This document shows, piece by piece, positions 2,951 through 35,080 of a DNA stretch of 64,000 nucleotides. How positions within the stretch are numbered: position 1 is the first letter of the stretch; each line of letters starts with the position of its first letter. The position numbers and the translations under genes were made by a program. Location: assembly GCF_947631555.1 (NCBI RefSeq), contig NZ_CANRLT010000001.1, positions 1 to 64,000 of the forward strand, written 5' to 3'. The DNA comes from an uncultured Mailhella sp. GTDB lineage: Bacteria > Desulfobacterota > Desulfovibrionia > Desulfovibrionales > Desulfovibrionaceae. The notes under the pieces were generated by a model. The model was not told the DNA's origin. It saw only the letters and a list, made by a program, of their open reading frames with translations, and did no database searches.

Positions 2951-5431
<2,481 letters not shown>

Positions 5432-5562: not shown

Positions 5563-6720
5563 TTATTCTTCTTCGGTGTAATAGGCGGACTCCGCTATCT
5601 TCATCGGCATGAGGATAACGTTGTATTCCGCGTCGTCCGCGCCGGTCATGCCGCAAGGCCCTTCCGCACCGGTAAAGACGAAGTCTATCTTTGCCGATTG
5701 GAAGTGGCCTAGAATATCCATAAGGCCTCTTGTTGGGAATGCTATGAGCGAAAGGTCACCCTTGAAGTCTCCTTCCAGATGTTCGGTAGCCGAACCTGTT
5801 TCCTGCCCCTGTGCAGAAAGCACGACTTCAGAAGGCTCAAAGTGGAAATAGGTGCAGCGATCGCTGTCGTTGTTGAAAAGGAGAAGGCGATCAAGAGCAT
5901 CGAGGCTTTCTTTCCTGTCTACTGTGAGCTGTGAGGTATTATCACCCTTGAGACGTGCAAGAAAGCCCAGGTGATCGGGATAAGTGAAGTTGACGCTGCG
6001 TGGAATGCTCAGAGTTTCGTTGCCGGAGCCGGTGCGTATATGGAAACGGCGTTCGCTGATATTGAGCATGATTTCATCACTGCCCAGCCATTTTCGAAGC
6101 TCGTTCACATATTTCTTCTGGATGAGCAGGCCGTTTTCCGGAAGCAGCCTGGCAAGCTCATCGTTGATGAAGCGTACCATGGCGAACTGATGTCCGTTCA
6201 GACCGCAGACATCCACCTTTCCTCCTTCATACGTCTTTAAATAAAGACAGGCCAGACCCTCTGCGCTGTCGTCATCACTGATACAAAAAGAGACGCGGTC
6301 GATAACGTCCTGCAGAAAATCGCCGGACCAGAGTACCGCTCCTTCTTCCGGAAAAGCGGGAAGGGGCTGGAACCAGACAGGGTCCACGGTGGGCAGTTTG
6401 TAGGAACGGCGTCCCTGTTCCACAAGCAGAACATTGGAAGCCTCATCCACGCGAAGGTCTATATCCCCACCTGGGAGGCGGCGCAGAAGTTCCACAAAGG
6501 AACGGCCGTTGACGCCCGCCTGTCCTTCCTCTTTTGTCTTCGCGGGATAGACGCCGGTAAATTCGATGTTTACGTCCGTGGACATGATGGTTATGCCATC
6601 GGATTTCGCCTGAAGCCAGATCGAACGAAGATAGGCTGCTCCTGCCTTGCTTGGAATGATGGAGGCCGCTTTCTGAAGCCCATCGATGATCTGCTCTTTC
6701 TTTACGGTTACGTGCATCAT
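5563..6720 (-). CDS. dnaN: DNA polymerase III beta sliding clamp
   Basis: 385 aa, DnaN-like sequence, directly downstream of dnaA. Confidence 0.95.
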   Translation of the reverse strand: MMHVTVKKEQIIDGLQKAASIIPSKAGAAYLRSIWLQAKSDGITIMSTDVNIEFTGVYPAKTKEEGQAGVNGRSFVELLRRLPGGDIDLRVDEASNVLLVEQGRRSYKLPTVDPVWFQPLPAFPEEGAVLWSGDFLQDVIDRVSFCISDDDSAEGLACLYLKTYEGGKVDVCGLNGHQFAMVRFINDELARLLPENGLLIQKKYVNELRKWLGSDEIMLNISERRFHIRTGSGNETLSIPRSVNFTYPDHLGFLARLKGDNTSQLTVDRKESLDALDRLLLFNNDSDRCTYFHFEPSEVVLSAQGQETGSATEHLEGDFKGDLSLIAFPTRGLMDILGHFQSAKIDFVFTGAEGPCGMTGADDAEYNVILMPMKIAESAYYTEEE

Positions 6721-26099: not shown

Positions 26100-27206
26100 A
26101 TGTCTCTGAAGAACTGGCTGCATACCATGAAGGGCAAGTGCCTGCCGCCGTCAGCGCGTAAGGTTATGCGTATGGAAAAGACGCTTCTTTGCCGTTTGGA
26201 TGAATTGTCAGCGCAGCACGGCTATCTCGATAGGCAGATTAAGGCACTATCGGCAAGAAATGATCTGCTGTTCTGGTTTTCGCAGATGCGCGAAGGTGAA
26301 GGCCTCGCACGAACCAAACGAAATTTCTTTGAAGGGCTTGTCCCCGAAGAAGGCCTTATTCGGGGAACGCAGCTTGTTATGTTGAATTTAATGGACTTCA
26401 TTGATGATGTTTGTACAGAAAACGGGCTTACCTATTTTTTATCTCATGGCACACTTATAGGCGCGGTCAGGCATAAAGGCTTTATACCATGGGATGATGA
26501 TACTGATGTCAGCATGATGCGCGAGGACTTTTTAAAATTTAAGAATATCATAAAAACGCAGTCGCGGTATCGTCTTGTGGATTATTATGAGGCAGGATGC
26601 AGAAAAGAGTCCTGTGGTCGTTTTGCAAAATTGGTAGATACAAATCTGCCTTTGCATATTTTTGTTGATGTTTTTGTTTATGACTGGGAGGACACGAAGA
26701 GTGACGAGGAAGCCTCTCGGAAATATTATGCCAAAAGAACAGAATTAGGTGAGAGAATATGGGAGACAGCGCAGAGATCAGGCTGCGCGGCAGAATCTCG
26801 GCCCATTGAAGACCCGGCTATTAAATCTCAGCTTGATGCTGTTTTTGATGAGTATGTCTATCCTTATCCAAAAGAGGGAACAGGCATTCAGTGGGGAGTG
26901 GATTTGTTTTGGAAGCGAAATATTTATTGCATAAAGAAAGAATATGTCTTTCCTGTCAAACGCATGCCGTTTGAGGCAAATGTTCTTAGAGAGGACGAGC
27001 GAGCGTCTGGTAAAAAAGAAAAGAAGAGAGAATTTTGTGTGCCGCAGAATCCTGAAGTGCTTCTCTCTCTCGCTTATGGTAACATCATGGAAATTCCAGC
27101 TCGCTGTTATGCCTATTTTCATGCAAAGTATTTTGATTTTTACGGCAAGGAAGACATTATAGAGGAATATCTTAAAACATGGGGCTGCGCTGATCAAAAG
27201 GGGTAA
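26100..27206 (+). CDS. LicD-family phosphotransferase, paralogue 1
   Basis: FLSHGTLIGAVRHKGFIPWDDDTDVSMMREDF LicD signature; N-terminal coiled-coil-like extension. Confidence 0.9.
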   Translation: MSLKNWLHTMKGKCLPPSARKVMRMEKTLLCRLDELSAQHGYLDRQIKALSARNDLLFWFSQMREGEGLARTKRNFFEGLVPEEGLIRGTQLVMLNLMDFIDDVCTENGLTYFLSHGTLIGAVRHKGFIPWDDDTDVSMMREDFLKFKNIIKTQSRYRLVDYYEAGCRKESCGRFAKLVDTNLPLHIFVDVFVYDWEDTKSDEEASRKYYAKRTELGERIWETAQRSGCAAESRPIEDPAIKSQLDAVFDEYVYPYPKEGTGIQWGVDLFWKRNIYCIKKEYVFPVKRMPFEANVLREDERASGKKEKKREFCVPQNPEVLLSLAYGNIMEIPARCYAYFHAKYFDFYGKEDIIEEYLKTWGCADQKG

Positions 27207-27512: not shown

Positions 27513-28592
27513 ATGTCTCTGAAGAACTGGCTGCATACCATGAAGAGTAAGTGCCTGCCGCCGTCGGCGCGTAAGGTTATGCGTATGGAAAAGACGCTTC
27601 TTTGCCGTTTGGATGAATTGTCAGCGCAGCACGGCTATCTCGACGGGCAGATTAAAGCGCTATCGGCAAGAAATGATCTGCTGTTCTGGTTTTCGCAGAT
27701 GCGCGAAGGGGAAGGCCTAGCGCGAACCAAACGAAATTTCTTTGAAAGACTTGTCCCCGAAGAAGGTCTTATTCGGGGGGGGCAGCTTATTATGTTGAAT
27801 TTGTTGGATTTTTTGGATGATGTTTGCACAGAAAACGGACTTGCCTATGTTTTAGCTCATGGAACACTCTTAGGCGCGGTCAGGCATAAGGGCTTTATTC
27901 CATGGGATGATGATGTTGATATATTCATGATGCGTGAAGACTTTTTAAAATTCGAGAAAATAATAAAAAATCAGTCAAGATATTGTATTATGGATTTATA
28001 TTTTGTGGATGATAAAAAAAATAAATGTGCTCGTAGTAAAGTGTTAAGAGATACAAAGATTAATTTGAATATTTGGATTGATATACTAATTCTTGACAAC
28101 ACAATAATTGATGATGAGTCATCCCGTAAAAAACAAGCCAAAAGAATAGAATTAAGTAAGAAAGTGTGGGATATTACGCAAAAATCAGGCTGGGCGGTAA
28201 AGTTTTACCCTATTTATAACCTGGCTATTAAATCTAAACTTGATGCTGTTTTTGATGAGTATATATATCCTTGTCAAAAAGAGGGAACATTTATTGAGTC
28301 CGTGTGGGGCTGGTATTCATTTAAGAAAGAAGATGTTTTTCCCGTCAAACGTATGCCGTTTGAGGCAAATGTTCTCAGGGAGGATGAGCGAGCGTCTGGT
28401 AAAAAAAAGAAAAAGAGAGAATTTTGTGTGCCAAAGAATCCTGAAGCACTTCTCTCTCGTTATGGTGACATCATGAAAATTCCGGATGGACCTTATTCCT
28501 ATAGACATGCAAAGTATTTTGATTTTTACGGCAAGGAAGACATTATAGAGGAATATCTTAAAACATGGGGCTGCGCTGATCAAAAGGGGTAA
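27513..28592 (+). CDS. LicD-family phosphotransferase, paralogue 2 (contains G8 tract)
   Basis: Near-identical N- and C-termini to paralogue 1; VLAHGTLLGAVRHKGFIPWDDDVDIFMM. Confidence 0.9.
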   Translation: MSLKNWLHTMKSKCLPPSARKVMRMEKTLLCRLDELSAQHGYLDGQIKALSARNDLLFWFSQMREGEGLARTKRNFFERLVPEEGLIRGGQLIMLNLLDFLDDVCTENGLAYVLAHGTLLGAVRHKGFIPWDDDVDIFMMREDFLKFEKIIKNQSRYCIMDLYFVDDKKNKCARSKVLRDTKINLNIWIDILILDNTIIDDESSRKKQAKRIELSKKVWDITQKSGWAVKFYPIYNLAIKSKLDAVFDEYIYPCQKEGTFIESVWGWYSFKKEDVFPVKRMPFEANVLREDERASGKKKKKREFCVPKNPEALLSRYGDIMKIPDGPYSYRHAKYFDFYGKEDIIEEYLKTWGCADQKG

Positions 28593-28664: not shown

Positions 28665-29726
28665 ATGGTTATCTGGATAATCGGACTGTCCGGAGTGGGT
28701 AAGACTACTCTTGCTGAAGAAGTTGTGCGCCTTGCCAGGCAGGACGGCAAGACCGTGGCGCAGCTGGATGGCGATGTCATGCGCAGCGTATGGGGCGACA
28801 ACCTCGGGCATACGCTGGAGGATCGCAAAAAAAACGCCGACCGTCTCCACGGATTATGCCGATACCTGGAAGGAGAGGGCGTGCATGTGGTGGCACCGGT
28901 TCTATCCCTGTTTCAGGAAACTAGGGACAAGAACAGGCGGGAACTGCGCGATTACTATGAGGTATACATCAAGTGCCCCATGGAGAACCTGGTTCTGCGG
29001 GATTCCAAGGGACTGTATGCTCGGGCAAGGCGGGGTGAAATCGAGCTGCCCGGAGTCAACATGCGTTTTGAAGAACCATGCGCTCCCGATCTGGTTATTG
29101 AAAATGCGGGTTCCCGTAACGAATTGCTGAGTTACGCCCCCATGCTGGCTCAAAAGCTGGTCCGGTCGGGAAGGATGGCCTATTCCTACACTGCGAGGGA
29201 TTTATTGCATGAGCCGGAAAACTATTTTTACGCGCCGTTTGGCGGCAAGGATTTTGTCAAGGCATGGAAGCGGTGCCGGGAAGAATCATTGACCGCCTGG
29301 GCCGGAGCGGAAGCCATGGGACCCTGCCCCGGCGATTTGACGGAAACGGAGCGTGAATTGTGGCGACTGGCTTCAACAGGCCAGAAACCGACAGGGAAGG
29401 ATGCCGTCCTGATTGAAGGATTGCTCCGGCGTTTTGAGGTCAGTAAAAAACTGCCTGCCACTCTGGTGCCGCCACGGTATTCCTGTGTGCGGGCGAGTGA
29501 CCGTTTGACCCGTCCTCATGCCTACGCCTGCCTTGGGGCGATTCTGGCCTTGAGCGCTGCGGAAGAACCGGACATGCGCCAGCTCAACTGCCTTTTGAAA
29601 ATCAATGACCTTCTTTGCTCGCTGTCCAGCCTTCCCTCTGAACTTTTTCCCCTTGCCCGCCGCGCTCTTGCCGGCGAGCTGACTGCCGTTCAGGGCTGGG
29701 CGCAAAGGAGCCATCTATGCAAATAA
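28665..29726 (+). CDS. APS-kinase-like protein, likely CDP-phosphoramidate kinase (Cj1415-like) with C-terminal extension
   Basis: P-loop GLSGVGKTTLAEEV, LDGDVMR, RARRGEIELPGVNMRFEEP; co-located with Cj1416-1418-like genes. Confidence 0.8.
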   Translation: MVIWIIGLSGVGKTTLAEEVVRLARQDGKTVAQLDGDVMRSVWGDNLGHTLEDRKKNADRLHGLCRYLEGEGVHVVAPVLSLFQETRDKNRRELRDYYEVYIKCPMENLVLRDSKGLYARARRGEIELPGVNMRFEEPCAPDLVIENAGSRNELLSYAPMLAQKLVRSGRMAYSYTARDLLHEPENYFYAPFGGKDFVKAWKRCREESLTAWAGAEAMGPCPGDLTETERELWRLASTGQKPTGKDAVLIEGLLRRFEVSKKLPATLVPPRYSCVRASDRLTRPHAYACLGAILALSAAEEPDMRQLNCLLKINDLLCSLSSLPSELFPLARRALAGELTAVQGWAQRSHLCK

Positions 29727-30451
29727 GCGATGTTGCGCTTGTATGCGCGGACAATGTTCGGGCGCGCTGCTATATGCAGGCATTCACGGCGCGGAAACTG
29801 TTGCCCTCCTTCTGCTTGATATTGCCCGCTGCGGAATCGGGAAATCCGGACCCGAGACGGAGGCGTCTGTCACCGGCAGAGGTTCCCTGGGGCAGATTTG
29901 ATCCTGAGCGGGGCATCCGGGAGCTGTGTGAGGAAGCGGGTGTCCCTTGCGAGTTTGCGCCGGCTCATGACATCAACGCGCCGGAGACGATACGGCACAT
30001 TGCCGAACTTACACAGCAGGTCTGTGTGTATGCGGGATTTGGCGGCGTTATTCTACGGGCCGATCTTTTAAACTGCGGGAAGAAATTTCTGCACGCCCAT
30101 GGCGGCTGGCTTCCCTCTTATAAAGGAAGTACCACTAACTATTACAGTGCGCTGCAGGAAAACTTCTGTGCCGCTTCCGCCATGTTCCTGAATGAGGAGA
30201 TCGACCGTGGCGTGGTGTTGTGCCGCCGCCGCTTTGCTGTGCCCGCAGATATGTCACTCATGGATTATGTGCATGACAATGTTTTCCGGGCCGAAGTGCT
30301 GTGCGAAGTGTTGGCCGCGCATGTGAAAAGCCGGGGCTGGCCGGAGTCCGTTGTCGAAAATACCCCGACCAATCCCTATTTCGTCATGCATCCGCTTTTA
30401 AGACATATGGCTATTCTTGGTAGTAAAGGAGCAGATTTGCCATGCGCATAA
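29717..30451 (+). CDS. Formyltransferase-fold protein
   Basis: HAHGGWLPSYKGSTTNYYSAL resembles the formyltransferase HPxxLPxYRG motif; EEIDRGVVL. Confidence 0.65.
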   Translation: MQISDVALVCADNVRARCYMQAFTARKLLPSFCLILPAAESGNPDPRRRRLSPAEVPWGRFDPERGIRELCEEAGVPCEFAPAHDINAPETIRHIAELTQQVCVYAGFGGVILRADLLNCGKKFLHAHGGWLPSYKGSTTNYYSALQENFCAASAMFLNEEIDRGVVLCRRRFAVPADMSLMDYVHDNVFRAEVLCEVLAAHVKSRGWPESVVENTPTNPYFVMHPLLRHMAILGSKGADLPCA

Positions 30452-31245
30452 CGTATCGAAAAAATGATTCGCTTGCTTACTGGACACAGCGTTGGGCCGA
30501 TGTTGAAGCGGACGAACCGATGGAAAACCGTGCCTCATATCCCTTGAAATACGCTCTGGAAGCAGTGGCCCGCTCATCAGCGCCAAGGGGTGGACGTATC
30601 TGTGAAGCCGGGTGCGGCAATGGGCGGCTGGTACGCTATTTTATGCGCAGCGGCTGCAATATAAGAGGTTTTGATTTTATTCCCGAGGCCATCAGTAAAA
30701 TTAAAAGCGTTGAACCTGATGCCGAAGTGGAAACAGGAGACATTCTTAATCTTTCCTATCCCGATGAATATTTTGATACCTTTCTTGCCTTTGGATTGTA
30801 TCACAGCTTGCCGTATGAACTTCAGGATCAGGCGATGCAGGAAACGTTCAGGGTTTTAAAACCTGGTGGCGTTTTGTGTGCATCGTTTCGGGCGGACAAC
30901 CTGTGTACTCGTATATCAGACTATCTGCGGCAACCTGCCCGGAAGGAAGAGAAAAAGAAGTTCCACAAGCTTAATCTGACACGTCGTGAATGGGAACATG
31001 TTTTACTTCGGAATGGTTTTACTGTAGAAAAGATGGACTGTGTTGTTAATATGCCTATACTCTATAAATTTAAATGCTTTCGACATGCAACACACAAAAA
31101 TTTTGATGAACATAAAGGTCGTTGTGAAGGGTATTTGCTTAACTTACCTGGTAAATTACTGTGGAAAGTTTTATATATAATTTTCGGGGGGGGGAGATGT
31201 GTAATGTTTTTGTTGTTCAGGCTCGAAAAATCAAGAGTTAAATAG
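30442..31245 (+). CDS. Class I SAM-dependent methyltransferase (contains G9 tract near the 3' end)
   Basis: GRICEAGCGNGRLVRYF motif I, FDTFLAFGLYHSLPYE, ETFRVLKPGGVLCASF. Confidence 0.88.
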   Translation: MRITYRKNDSLAYWTQRWADVEADEPMENRASYPLKYALEAVARSSAPRGGRICEAGCGNGRLVRYFMRSGCNIRGFDFIPEAISKIKSVEPDAEVETGDILNLSYPDEYFDTFLAFGLYHSLPYELQDQAMQETFRVLKPGGVLCASFRADNLCTRISDYLRQPARKEEKKKFHKLNLTRREWEHVLLRNGFTVEKMDCVVNMPILYKFKCFRHATHKNFDEHKGRCEGYLLNLPGKLLWKVLYIIFGGGRCVMFLLFRLEKSRVK

Positions 31246-31269: not shown

Positions 31270-33651
31270 ATGAATACACCTGCCTTTTCTTTCACCTCCA
31301 AGGCCGACACTCTGCTTGCCCTTTCTGCCCACGAAGAGTTGCACATTCCGCCTGTGCATGTTTTTACCGTGGCGCAGTGGCAGTCCGGACAGGAGGCTGT
31401 CCTCCGCAGGCTGGCGGAGGCATTTTCCCCGGAGGAAGTGCTGGCCGTGCGCTCATCCTGCCGCAGAGAGGATTCTGCCGAGTCATCCGCCGCCGGAGCC
31501 TATCTCTCCATCCTCAATGTTGCGCTCTCGGATCCAGTCGCCCTGCGCGATGCCGTGGAGAAGGTCATGGTCTCCTACGGCGGGGCGGAACCCGATGATC
31601 AGGTGCTGTGCCAATCCATGATCCGGAATGTCACCGTCACCGGCGTCATCATGACCCGTGCGCTCAATGACGGCGCACCGTATTACGTCATCAACTACGA
31701 TGATGAATCGGGCCGGACAGACACCATCACGGGCGGACACAGCGTCAGCAAAACGGTTTCCGTGTACCGTGGGGTAAGCGACCGCGACTTTGATTCTCCC
31801 CGCCTGCGCGGTTTTGTAGCGCTGGCCCGCCGCCTGGAAGAGCTGTGCGGCAGTGACAGCCTGGACATCGAATTCTGTCAGGACGCGGATAATGTCCTGC
31901 ATCTGCTCCAGGTCCGGCCCATGTGCACACAGCGGCACTGGCCGGAACAGAACGAGTCCATCCGCGAGTTCATCGGGTATGGCGCGGACTTTATCGCGGC
32001 GCGAACCGGCCCGTCTTCAAACCTGTTCGGACAGCGGGCCATTCTGGGAGTGATGCCGGACTGGAATCCGGCGGAGATCATCGGCCTGCTGCCGCATCCG
32101 CTGGCAAGCTCGCTGTACCGCAGCCTGATCACCGCGCGGGTATGGAGCGAAGCGAGGGAACGCATGGGCTACCGTCCCCTGCCCGCCACGGAACTCATGG
32201 TTCTGCTGCTCGGCCGTCCCTATATTGACACCCGCGCAAGCTTCAATTCCTTTTTGCCGAACGGCCTTGATCCCGTTACATGCGAAGCTCTGGTGTCTGC
32301 CTGGCTGGAACGGCTTGAGGCGCAGCCCCAGCTGCATGACAAAATTGAGTTTGAAATCGCGCAGACGGTCCTGGACTTCTGCTTTGACACTCATTTGGAC
32401 GAGCGTTATCCGGGACTGCTCAGCTCCCAAAGGCGCGAGGAGTTCCGGGACTCGCTCCGGCATCTGACCGTCCGCTGTCTGGACGAGTCTCCTTCCGGCT
32501 CCATGAAGCAGGCCTTTGACGCCGTGACCGAACTGCGCAACCGGCAGGCGGGCAGAATTCAGGTCGGGCCGGAACAGCGCCTTCCCCTGTCCGCCGTCAA
32601 CGCACTGCTGGAAGAATGCCGCGAGTTAGGTACCCTGCCCTTTTCCATTCTGGCCCGCCATGCCTTCATGGCGGAAAGCCTGCTGCGCACGGCAGTGAAG
32701 CGGGGCGCGCTGCTGCCCGAGCGGATGCGGGCGTTCAAACTGTCCGTCAAAACCATTTCCGGGGAACTGTCCGGCGAATTTCTGGAGGTGTGCAAGGGCC
32801 AGAGGGACGCTTTGGGCTTTATGCGCAAGTACGGCCATCTGCGGCCGAGCAGCTATGACATCTTATCTCCCCGCTACGCGGATCGCGAAAATCTTTTCAG
32901 CGATGCGCAGGACCTTGTTGTCAGGGAACAGCCCAACGAAGTCTTTGCTCCCAGCCCGGAAGAGCGGCGCGACCTTCAGCTTCTGCTGACGGAAAGCGGC
33001 CTGCCTGTCACGCCGGAAGGTCTGTTCCATTATGCACGCCGGGCCATTGCGGGGCGGGAACTGGCCAAGTTTGTCTTCAGCCGGAATCTGTCGGACGTGC
33101 TGGAAATCGTGGCGCTGTGGGGCGAGGATATGGGGTTCAGCCGGGACGACGTGTCCTTCATGGATATACAGGCCATTCTGGACTCGATTACCCATCTCTG
33201 CCCGGAGACACCCAGGGAGCATTTTGCCCGGCATATAGCGGCCAACAGGGAAATTTTTGCCAAAAGCGAAAATATCAGACTCGGCTACCTGATCCGCTCC
33301 GTCAGAGATGTTTATATCGTTCCCCAGCACAGGGCCGAACCCAACTACATCGGCGCGGGCCGGATAGAGGGAAGCCTCGTGCGGTTGTTTGCCGACAGCC
33401 CCTGCAGCATGGATCTGTCGGGAAAGATTGTGTGCATTGAAAACGCCGATCCCGGCTTTGACTGGATTTTCACGCGACAGATTGCGGGGCTTGTCACCAA
33501 GTTTGGAGGCACAAACTCCCATATGGCCATACGCTGCGCCGAATACGGCCTGCCCGCCGCCATCGGTGTGGGCGAGCAGATCTTTCAGTCTCTGGCCGGA
33601 GCCAAAAGGGCGCTGCTTGCCCCTCAGTCTGCCACACTCAAACCCTGCTGA
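31270..33651 (+). CDS. PEP-synthase/PPDK-related kinase, likely L-glutamine kinase (Cj1418-like)
   Basis: N-terminal ATP-grasp RSSCRREDSAESSAAGAYLSILNV; C-terminal phospho-His motif GGTNSHMAIRCAEYGLPAAIGVG; neighbours match the Cj1415-1418 set. Confidence 0.82.
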   Translation: MNTPAFSFTSKADTLLALSAHEELHIPPVHVFTVAQWQSGQEAVLRRLAEAFSPEEVLAVRSSCRREDSAESSAAGAYLSILNVALSDPVALRDAVEKVMVSYGGAEPDDQVLCQSMIRNVTVTGVIMTRALNDGAPYYVINYDDESGRTDTITGGHSVSKTVSVYRGVSDRDFDSPRLRGFVALARRLEELCGSDSLDIEFCQDADNVLHLLQVRPMCTQRHWPEQNESIREFIGYGADFIAARTGPSSNLFGQRAILGVMPDWNPAEIIGLLPHPLASSLYRSLITARVWSEARERMGYRPLPATELMVLLLGRPYIDTRASFNSFLPNGLDPVTCEALVSAWLERLEAQPQLHDKIEFEIAQTVLDFCFDTHLDERYPGLLSSQRREEFRDSLRHLTVRCLDESPSGSMKQAFDAVTELRNRQAGRIQVGPEQRLPLSAVNALLEECRELGTLPFSILARHAFMAESLLRTAVKRGALLPERMRAFKLSVKTISGELSGEFLEVCKGQRDALGFMRKYGHLRPSSYDILSPRYADRENLFSDAQDLVVREQPNEVFAPSPEERRDLQLLLTESGLPVTPEGLFHYARRAIAGRELAKFVFSRNLSDVLEIVALWGEDMGFSRDDVSFMDIQAILDSITHLCPETPREHFARHIAANREIFAKSENIRLGYLIRSVRDVYIVPQHRAEPNYIGAGRIEGSLVRLFADSPCSMDLSGKIVCIENADPGFDWIFTRQIAGLVTKFGGTNSHMAIRCAEYGLPAAIGVGEQIFQSLAGAKRALLAPQSATLKPC

Positions 33652-33656
33652 AAAAC

Positions 33657-34304
33657 ATGACCATGATCGCCATAACCATGCGCATGATGCGCCACAGCTA
33701 CGCCAGCGGCACACAGGAAGTACGGGACGCGCTGGCCCAGGACTGGTGGAGTTTTCTGAACCGTGCCCTGCCGGGCGTGCCGGTACTGCCGCTGCCCAAC
33801 ATCGGCAGCGAAGCCGTGGCCCTGGCGCAGGCGCTTTCCGTGTCCGGTCTGATCCTCACAGGCGGGGATGACTGGGGGGTGTTTCCCCGGCGGGATGCCA
33901 CTGAAGAAGCCCTGTTCCGCTGGGCGGAACGGAAGAATTTGCCCGTTCTCGGGGTGTGCCGGGGCGCGCAGATGATCAACCGTTTTATGGGGGGGCGTAC
34001 GAGTTTCGGCTTTGGAGCAGAACATGCGGGCACCCGCCATGCGCTCCACGTCGTTCCCCGCGCCGGAGAATTGCCGCTTTCCCCGGTGCCTCCGGAGGTC
34101 AACTCCTGGCACAACGGCGGCATACGGCCGGACGATCTTGCTACCGGTCTCATCCCGTGGGCCTTTGCCCCGGACGGCAGCGTGGAAGGCTTTTGCCGTG
34201 CGGATGGCAGCATAACGGGCATCATGTGGCATCCGGAGAGGGAACAAACGGCACAGGCTCACGATATTAACCTTTTTCAGATCTTGAATCGGGGGAACGC
34301 ATGA
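33657..34304 (+). CDS. Class I glutamine amidotransferase-fold hydrolase, likely gamma-glutamyl-CDP-amidate hydrolase (Cj1417-like)
   Basis: Nucleophile motif LGVCRGAQMIN and GIMWHPERE His/Glu; G7 tract between them. Confidence 0.82.
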   Translation: MTMIAITMRMMRHSYASGTQEVRDALAQDWWSFLNRALPGVPVLPLPNIGSEAVALAQALSVSGLILTGGDDWGVFPRRDATEEALFRWAERKNLPVLGVCRGAQMINRFMGGRTSFGFGAEHAGTRHALHVVPRAGELPLSPVPPEVNSWHNGGIRPDDLATGLIPWAFAPDGSVEGFCRADGSITGIMWHPEREQTAQAHDINLFQILNRGNA

Positions 34305-35080
34305 AAGCAGCAGGAATTATTCTGGCGGCAGGGCGCGGATCGCGCATGAGGAATCTGACGGAGGAACGCCCCAAGTGCATGGTGGAGCTGGCGGGCAAGC
34401 CCTTGCTGCACTGGCAGCTGAGTGCCCTGCGAAGGGCAGGAATCAGCAGCATTCTGGTCGTGCGCGGATATCTGGCCGGGTGCCTTGAGGCAAGCGCCGC
34501 CACGGGTGAGTTTGCCACCGCGGAAAATCCGCGCTGGGAGCGGACGAACATGCTGTCCACACTGCTGTGCGCGGACGAGTTTGCCCGTAAGAGCTTTGCC
34601 CTTGGCGTGGAGCGCCTCATCGTCTCCTATTCGGATATCGTCTATCACTGGGAGCATATAGGTGCGCTGCTGTCGTGTCCCGAGGATATCGCCATTACCT
34701 ATGACACAGAATGGGAAGCCCTGTGGACATTGCGCTTCGGCGATCCGCTGCTGGACGCGGAAACCTTTCGTCAGGAACATGGGCTGCTGCGCGAAATCGG
34801 CGGCAAGCCGGCTTCCCTGGCGGATATACACGGCCAGTACATGGGGCTTTTGAGTTTCAGTCAGACCGGATGGAACATCATGACCAAGCTGTGCGCTGAC
34901 CTGGGCGAGGCGGTGGACAAAACGGATATGACCAGCTTTTTGCGCCTGCTGCTGTCCAGGTCAATCGAGGTTGGCGCGGTGTCTGTGGCCGGCAAATGGT
35001 GCGAGGCAGACAGCGGCGCGGATATCCAGGTATACGAAAAGGCGCTGGAGCAGAGGGGCTGGTCCCATGACTGGCGATAA
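34301..35080 (+). CDS. Nucleotidyltransferase, likely CTP:phosphoglutamine cytidylyltransferase (Cj1416-like)
   Basis: GIILAAGRGSRMRNLTEERPKCMVELAGKPLLHWQL NTP-transferase motif; ATGA overlap with upstream gene. Confidence 0.82.
   Translation: MKAAGIILAAGRGSRMRNLTEERPKCMVELAGKPLLHWQLSALRRAGISSILVVRGYLAGCLEASAATGEFATAENPRWERTNMLSTLLCADEFARKSFALGVERLIVSYSDIVYHWEHIGALLSCPEDIAITYDTEWEALWTLRFGDPLLDAETFRQEHGLLREIGGKPASLADIHGQYMGLLSFSQTGWNIMTKLCADLGEAVDKTDMTSFLRLLLSRSIEVGAVSVAGKWCEADSGADIQVYEKALEQRGWSHDWR

Follow-up and report, generated by a model that had tools for sequence, protein, structure and literature searches.

A nine-guanine tract near the end of a phosphoramidate-module methyltransferase gene as a probable contingency locus

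A run of nine guanines lies near the 3' end of a methyltransferase gene (MT) in an uncultured Mailhella sp. of the family Desulfovibrionaceae, within a stretch of 64 kb that was analysed as a whole and is called the window here. The locus raises the question of whether this run acts as a switch and, if so, in which state of the switch the gene was assembled. The features concerned are as follows.

30442..31245, + strand: class I SAM-dependent methyltransferase, as assembled (267 aa, G9 frame; Pfam Methyltransf_11, E 4e-17)
31186..31194, + strand: G9 homopolymer, proposed slippage site (direct reading; longest G/C run in the window)
31194..31241, + strand: conserved last-strand coding segment, EMCNVFVVQARKIKS then stop (profile tail score and motif), in the gene's reading frame at lengths 7 and 10 but not at G9

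The tract is read as codons GGG GGG GGG and the assembled product ends in YIIFGGGRCVMFLLFRLEKSRVK. Translation of tract-length variants gives a tail of GGGEMCNVFVVQARKIKS at G10 and of GGGDV at G8, each followed by a stop codon. The first-pass annotation had described nine G at 31186-31194 encoding Gly-Gly-Gly near the MT C-terminus, which direct reading confirmed, and its G10 and G8 tails proved exact on re-translation. Changes in tract length lead to three different C-termini, one of which is the native end of the family.

The tract is a simple repeat within a gene and is longer than expected by chance. A run of at least nine appeared in 0.6% of synonymous-codon shuffles of MT (window codon usage), and shuffles of this kind predict about 0.065 such runs in total for 15 window genes. 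The only other G/C runs of at least seven in the 64 kb window are a G8 at 27775 and a G7 at 33989. The genome (2.58 Mb, 154 contigs) has 24 G/C runs of at least nine, with lengths including 10, 10, 10, 15 and 19, many of them intergenic or in non-surface genes, for example hemB; the run in MT is therefore uncommon, with a length that is suggestive only. Tract length alone was rejected as proof of a switch, since such runs also occur in every genome of the genus (4 to 47 apiece in the 18 others).

Comparison with the family can reveal which tract allele works. The last beta strand of MT homologues carries an [FM]CN[IVL] ending in 29 of 30 proteins (28 of 29 distinct). The lone exception (L116) has an early stop as read, with [FM]CN[IVL] still present in its downstream part; this stop is a nonsense codon, and a G-tract effect was rejected as its cause. 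Orthologues 44-50% identical to MT are located in similar modules, and three from the same taxonomic family (L097, L098 and L099; 44-47% identical) end in APxQMCNVTVCLARK or APDQFCNIYVLIAQK. The window encodes EMCNVFVVQARK only in the frame given by tract lengths 7 and 10. Homologue protein length is exactly that of the G7 product, and is matched by the G10 product with one extra glycine. Scored against a profile built without the window sequence, G7 reached 340.3 bits, G10 335.7, G9 323.6, G8 321.0 and a protein cut before the tract 320.5, so that the tail adds 15-20 bits in the G7/G10 frame versus 3 bits at G9. The motif is seen a single time in the window's 128,000 six-frame residues, which puts the chance for a tail of this length at about 1 in 10,000.

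Because the conserved ending is found only in the frame of lengths 7 and 10, the assembled G9 is the frame-shifted allele and is probably disabled rather than tuned. The earlier view of G9 as the normal state thus receives no support from the family.

Structure prediction is consistent with a damaged C-terminus at G9. MT carries an EAGCGxGR motif, and a Rossmann-like domain with this SAM motif and a C-terminal strand was found. The AlphaFold model of the orthologue L098 has its last strand at residues 255-262 with pLDDT 90-97 (block values 97 and 90). Over its whole length this model can be aligned with known class I methyltransferase structures (Z up to 19.4, rmsd 3.8 over 214 residues). For the window G9 protein, modelled from an alignment that included the same family, pLDDT is 58 and 54 in the final two blocks and the strand comprises four residues. 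The G8 product would be without the last strand altogether. As the G7/G10 tail is the conserved last strand, both G9 (strand altered) and G8 (strand absent) would be expected to be impaired, and loss of stability or activity is the likely effect of these tails. The G9 tail is still hydrophobic, and such a late frameshift may leave some activity.

It had also been proposed that slippage would merely modulate the enzyme or alter its coupling to the downstream gene. The residues that change are those of the conserved last beta strand, which does not fit mere modulation. Between G9 and G10 a change in coupling is unlikely: the two stop codons end at 31245 and 31241, only 4 bases apart and 25-29 bases 5' of the next start. 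Modulation and downstream coupling were both rejected as the main effect on these grounds.

The genes around MT appear to form a phosphoramidate-type module.

28665..29726, + strand: APS-kinase-like gene, candidate CDP-phosphoramidate kinase, with a C-terminal extension (Pfam APS_kinase; NCBIfam PRK05541 above cut-off)
29717..30451, + strand: formyltransferase-fold gene whose 3' end overlaps the MT start (Pfam Formyl_trans_N)
31270..33651, + strand: glutamine-kinase-like PEP-synthase relative (PPDK_N, PEP-utilizers; NCBIfam PRK05849)
33657..34304, + strand: class C26 glutamine amidotransferase-like gene, candidate gamma-glutamyl-CDP-amidate hydrolase (Pfam Peptidase_C26)
34301..35080, + strand: nucleotidyltransferase, candidate phosphoglutamine cytidylyltransferase (Pfam NTP_transf_3)
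27775..27782, + strand: G8 tract in the second LicD-family gene (27513-28592), in frame as assembled

The equivalog match of the glutamine-kinase-like protein to PRK05849 is above cut-off (900 bits), and the model bears no functional name. The best NCBIfam model for the C26 protein is GCDPHdlase, at 91.5 bits and below its cut-off of 250. The nearest solved structure to the nucleotidyltransferase is the CTP:phosphocholine cytidylyltransferase 1jyk. Much of this gene set surrounds MT in most homologous loci, across many phyla, and the formyltransferase-fold gene adjoins MT in many other loci too. Pfam, NCBIfam and the kept gene neighbourhood support the annotated placing of a class I methyltransferase inside a phosphoramidate-type module. 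The set is a candidate match to that expected for making a CDP-phosphoramidate donor as in Campylobacter jejuni.

Two LicD genes and glycosyltransferases precede the module, and the LicD proteins are candidate phosphoramidate transferases. The G8 tract in the second LicD gene may be another switch in this surface cluster: gain or loss of one base would leave a protein of about 95-102 aa. Its tandem paralogue (26100-27206) is without the G8 tract.

Among the genus genomes searched, only this one has the candidate glutamine kinase, which suggests that the module was acquired by transfer. No close MT orthologue was found among the 18 other genomes of the genus, and a phylum sample of 395 held none besides the window's own; viral contigs gave remote methyltransferases only. 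The genome has dsrA, whose nearest solved relatives are dissimilatory sulfite reductases, and the organism is therefore very likely a sulfate reducer.

Runs of G recur in orthologous methyltransferases. L105 and L113 have G10 tracts (6498-6507 and 6409-6418, respectively) and L125 has a G9 tract (4903-4911); all three are in frame as assembled, and a change of one base truncates the protein. They come from other lineages, namely a proteobacterial MAG, a KSB1 MAG and a Desulfobacterales MAG. They share with the window MT the enzyme family, the kind of module and an intragenic run of 9-10 G. In contrast, their tracts fall near residues 166, 137 and 35 in the protein alignment and not near the C-terminus, and slippage in them would cause early truncation, whereas the window G9 is in a shifted frame and affects the last strand only.

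At genome-contig loci, with the window's own tract excluded, runs of at least nine numbered three in 20.9 kb of MT sequence versus one in 286 kb of flank (Fisher P = 0.0012), in a test that was devised post hoc, after the data were seen, and that rests on three loci. Per-gene synonymous shuffles gave P of 0.002-0.009, and the other five module genes, 101 kb in all, had no run of at least nine. The enrichment counts exclude L120, which has the same protein sequence as L098. A C10 run (L126:3700-3709; G10 in sense) was seen in an antisense-strand ORF near the phosphoramidate module of a Nomurabacteria genome.

A second phosphoramidate module is present at the end of the window's own contig (L096, C1:92000-99792), with genes for glutamine kinase (cut by the contig end), a C26 protein, a nucleotidyltransferase, two methyltransferase-like proteins and an APS-kinase-like protein. 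The first of these methyltransferase genes (L096:5359-6225, - strand, about C1:97358-98224) contains a perfect in-frame (AG)14 at 6045-6073, where a change of one or two units reduces the methyltransferase to 63-69 aa. The genome has 242 overlapping matches to (AG)8, amounting to at least 14 arrays when counted by their ends, and its number of AG arrays exceeds that of every other genome of the genus.

Contigs C2, C6, C18, C22, C33, C36, C38, C42, C66 and C130: (AG)n array loci (L157-L166)

In the parts of the genome read around repeats, arrays of 10-27 AG units were observed in or beside genes resembling those for sugar, surface and secretion functions, and one of 26.5 units splits an apparent acyltransferase. 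Homopolymers were also noted elsewhere. A C15 run (L057:3043-3057) separates ORFs of 184 and 221 aa, seemingly halves of one gene, neither of which gave a Pfam match. Sense-strand G9 runs occur in two Acyl_transf_3 genes, in frame as assembled (L063:3002-3010 and L074:3001-3009). Another G9 (L062:2997-3005) lies in an ORF of 1280 aa, between a radical SAM domain and a FrhB/polysaccharide pyruvyl transferase part; slippage there might therefore join or separate two genes. The longest G/C run of the genome is a C19 just past the end of a glycerophosphodiester phosphodiesterase gene (L075:211-229).

Plausibly, then, this organism uses slippage repeats, and the repertoire raises the prior that the G9 tract in MT is a switch.

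The best reading of the tract, which we hold with reasonable though far from full confidence, is that it acts as a phase-variation (contingency) locus by which MT gains or loses its native last beta strand, in analogy to cj1420 of C. jejuni. The annotated view of the tract as phase-variable is kept in that form. Replication slippage in the population would change the number of Gs. With 7 or 10 Gs (lengths of 1 modulo 3) MT would end in its native beta strand; of the remaining frames, one would put a different tail in place of the strand, as in the assembled G9, and one would omit it. A methyltransferase without its native strand is expected to be unstable or inactive; its predicted substrate, the phosphoramidate decoration, would then be without its methyl group or left incomplete, and the cell surface would change reversibly. 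The locus would probably be an on/off switch, with the assembled allele off. Against this reading, nine Gs are at the short end for an unstable tract, and further runs of nine in this genome occur in non-surface genes and in intergenic DNA.

Chief among the alternatives is an error of one base in sequencing or assembly, such that the genome really has G10 (or G7) and an intact, maybe stable, gene. Homopolymer length is a common error, the assembly is a draft of 154 contigs, and the coding region is otherwise intact with the native tail immediately in the adjacent frame. Such an error would account for the frame. It would leave unexplained why there is a tract at all, why three orthologues have tracts and why the second module has a repeat, and we consider it unlikely. 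It is also compatible with phase variation, as it would alter the present state of the tract and not its nature. Somewhat more doubtful still is a fixed one-base shift that has left a decayed or slightly altered MT with a new C-terminus and no reversible switching. A G9 frame out of register with the family, a tract only nine long and runs of nine outside surface genes in the same genome all agree with it. However, MT is free of further stops and frameshifts, and the native tail beyond the tract is well preserved, so that any shift is recent or reversible, and the recurrent tracts of the family are left unexplained.

Slippage by RNA polymerase or the ribosome on the G run, programmed or by chance, would yield a fixed mixture of native and shifted protein with no switching of the DNA. 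The adjacent frame stays open and encodes the native tail, and according to a survey of A and T runs, some bacterial genes, such as those of IS elements, use slippage on mononucleotide runs (PMC1088944). This explanation offers no gain for the in-frame tracts of three orthologues or for the AG repeat of the second module, which DNA slippage fits better, and we give it very little weight.

Contingency repeats may have arisen repeatedly and convergently in methyltransferases of phosphoramidate modules in different bacterial phyla, a proposal that we regard as evenly poised. It is made because four lineages of a single orthologous family have poly-G, each at its own place in the gene, the methyltransferase of the second module has an AG repeat, and cj1420, which we take to encode a methyltransferase, has a poly-G tract. 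The pattern suggests that cells have repeatedly evolved on/off flipping of a surface modification by methyltransferases. If true, convergence would imply strong general selection to switch phosphoramidate methylation, for example by phages that bind the decoration; in Campylobacter, phosphoramidate decorations affect phage sensitivity. To our knowledge, work on such decorations and their switching has been confined almost entirely to Campylobacter. A switch of this kind in a sulfate reducer and, independently, in orthologues from other phyla would make the generality of the strategy testable.

A literature search found no paper joining Desulfovibrio with simple-sequence-repeat phase variation, and Desulfovibrio, phase variation and homopolymeric occurred together only in a Campylobacter paper, although such absence is weak evidence.

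The Campylobacter parallel drawn in the first-pass annotation is real: in the capsule locus of C. jejuni, phase-variable poly-G tracts are found in cj1420, cj1421 and cj1422 (PMC8437040). The C. jejuni phosphoramidate capsule pathway has glutamine kinase as its first step (PMC6429109), and in both systems poly-G is found in genes of a phosphoramidate-type module, the glutamine kinase of the window being a candidate. The two differ in organism and in the formyltransferase-fold gene that the window module also has. In the window the tract is in the last 20 codons and alters the final beta strand only. Length variation has been demonstrated in C. jejuni, whereas the window tract is known from the assembled sequence. 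In other Campylobacter species, poly-G occurs in many methyltransferases and in a gene with a formyltransferase domain (PMC6321876).

C-terminal switching by poly-G has been proposed in Helicobacter canadensis (PMC2823697). The evidence there is of length ranges in sequencing reads, whereas in the window the native frame comes from orthologues and impairment of the enzyme is predicted. As in the window, the H. canadensis tracts are at the 3' end of the ORF and slippage swaps the C-terminus while expression is not stopped, and a C-terminal beta sheet is predicted to change in two of the genes (PMC2823697).
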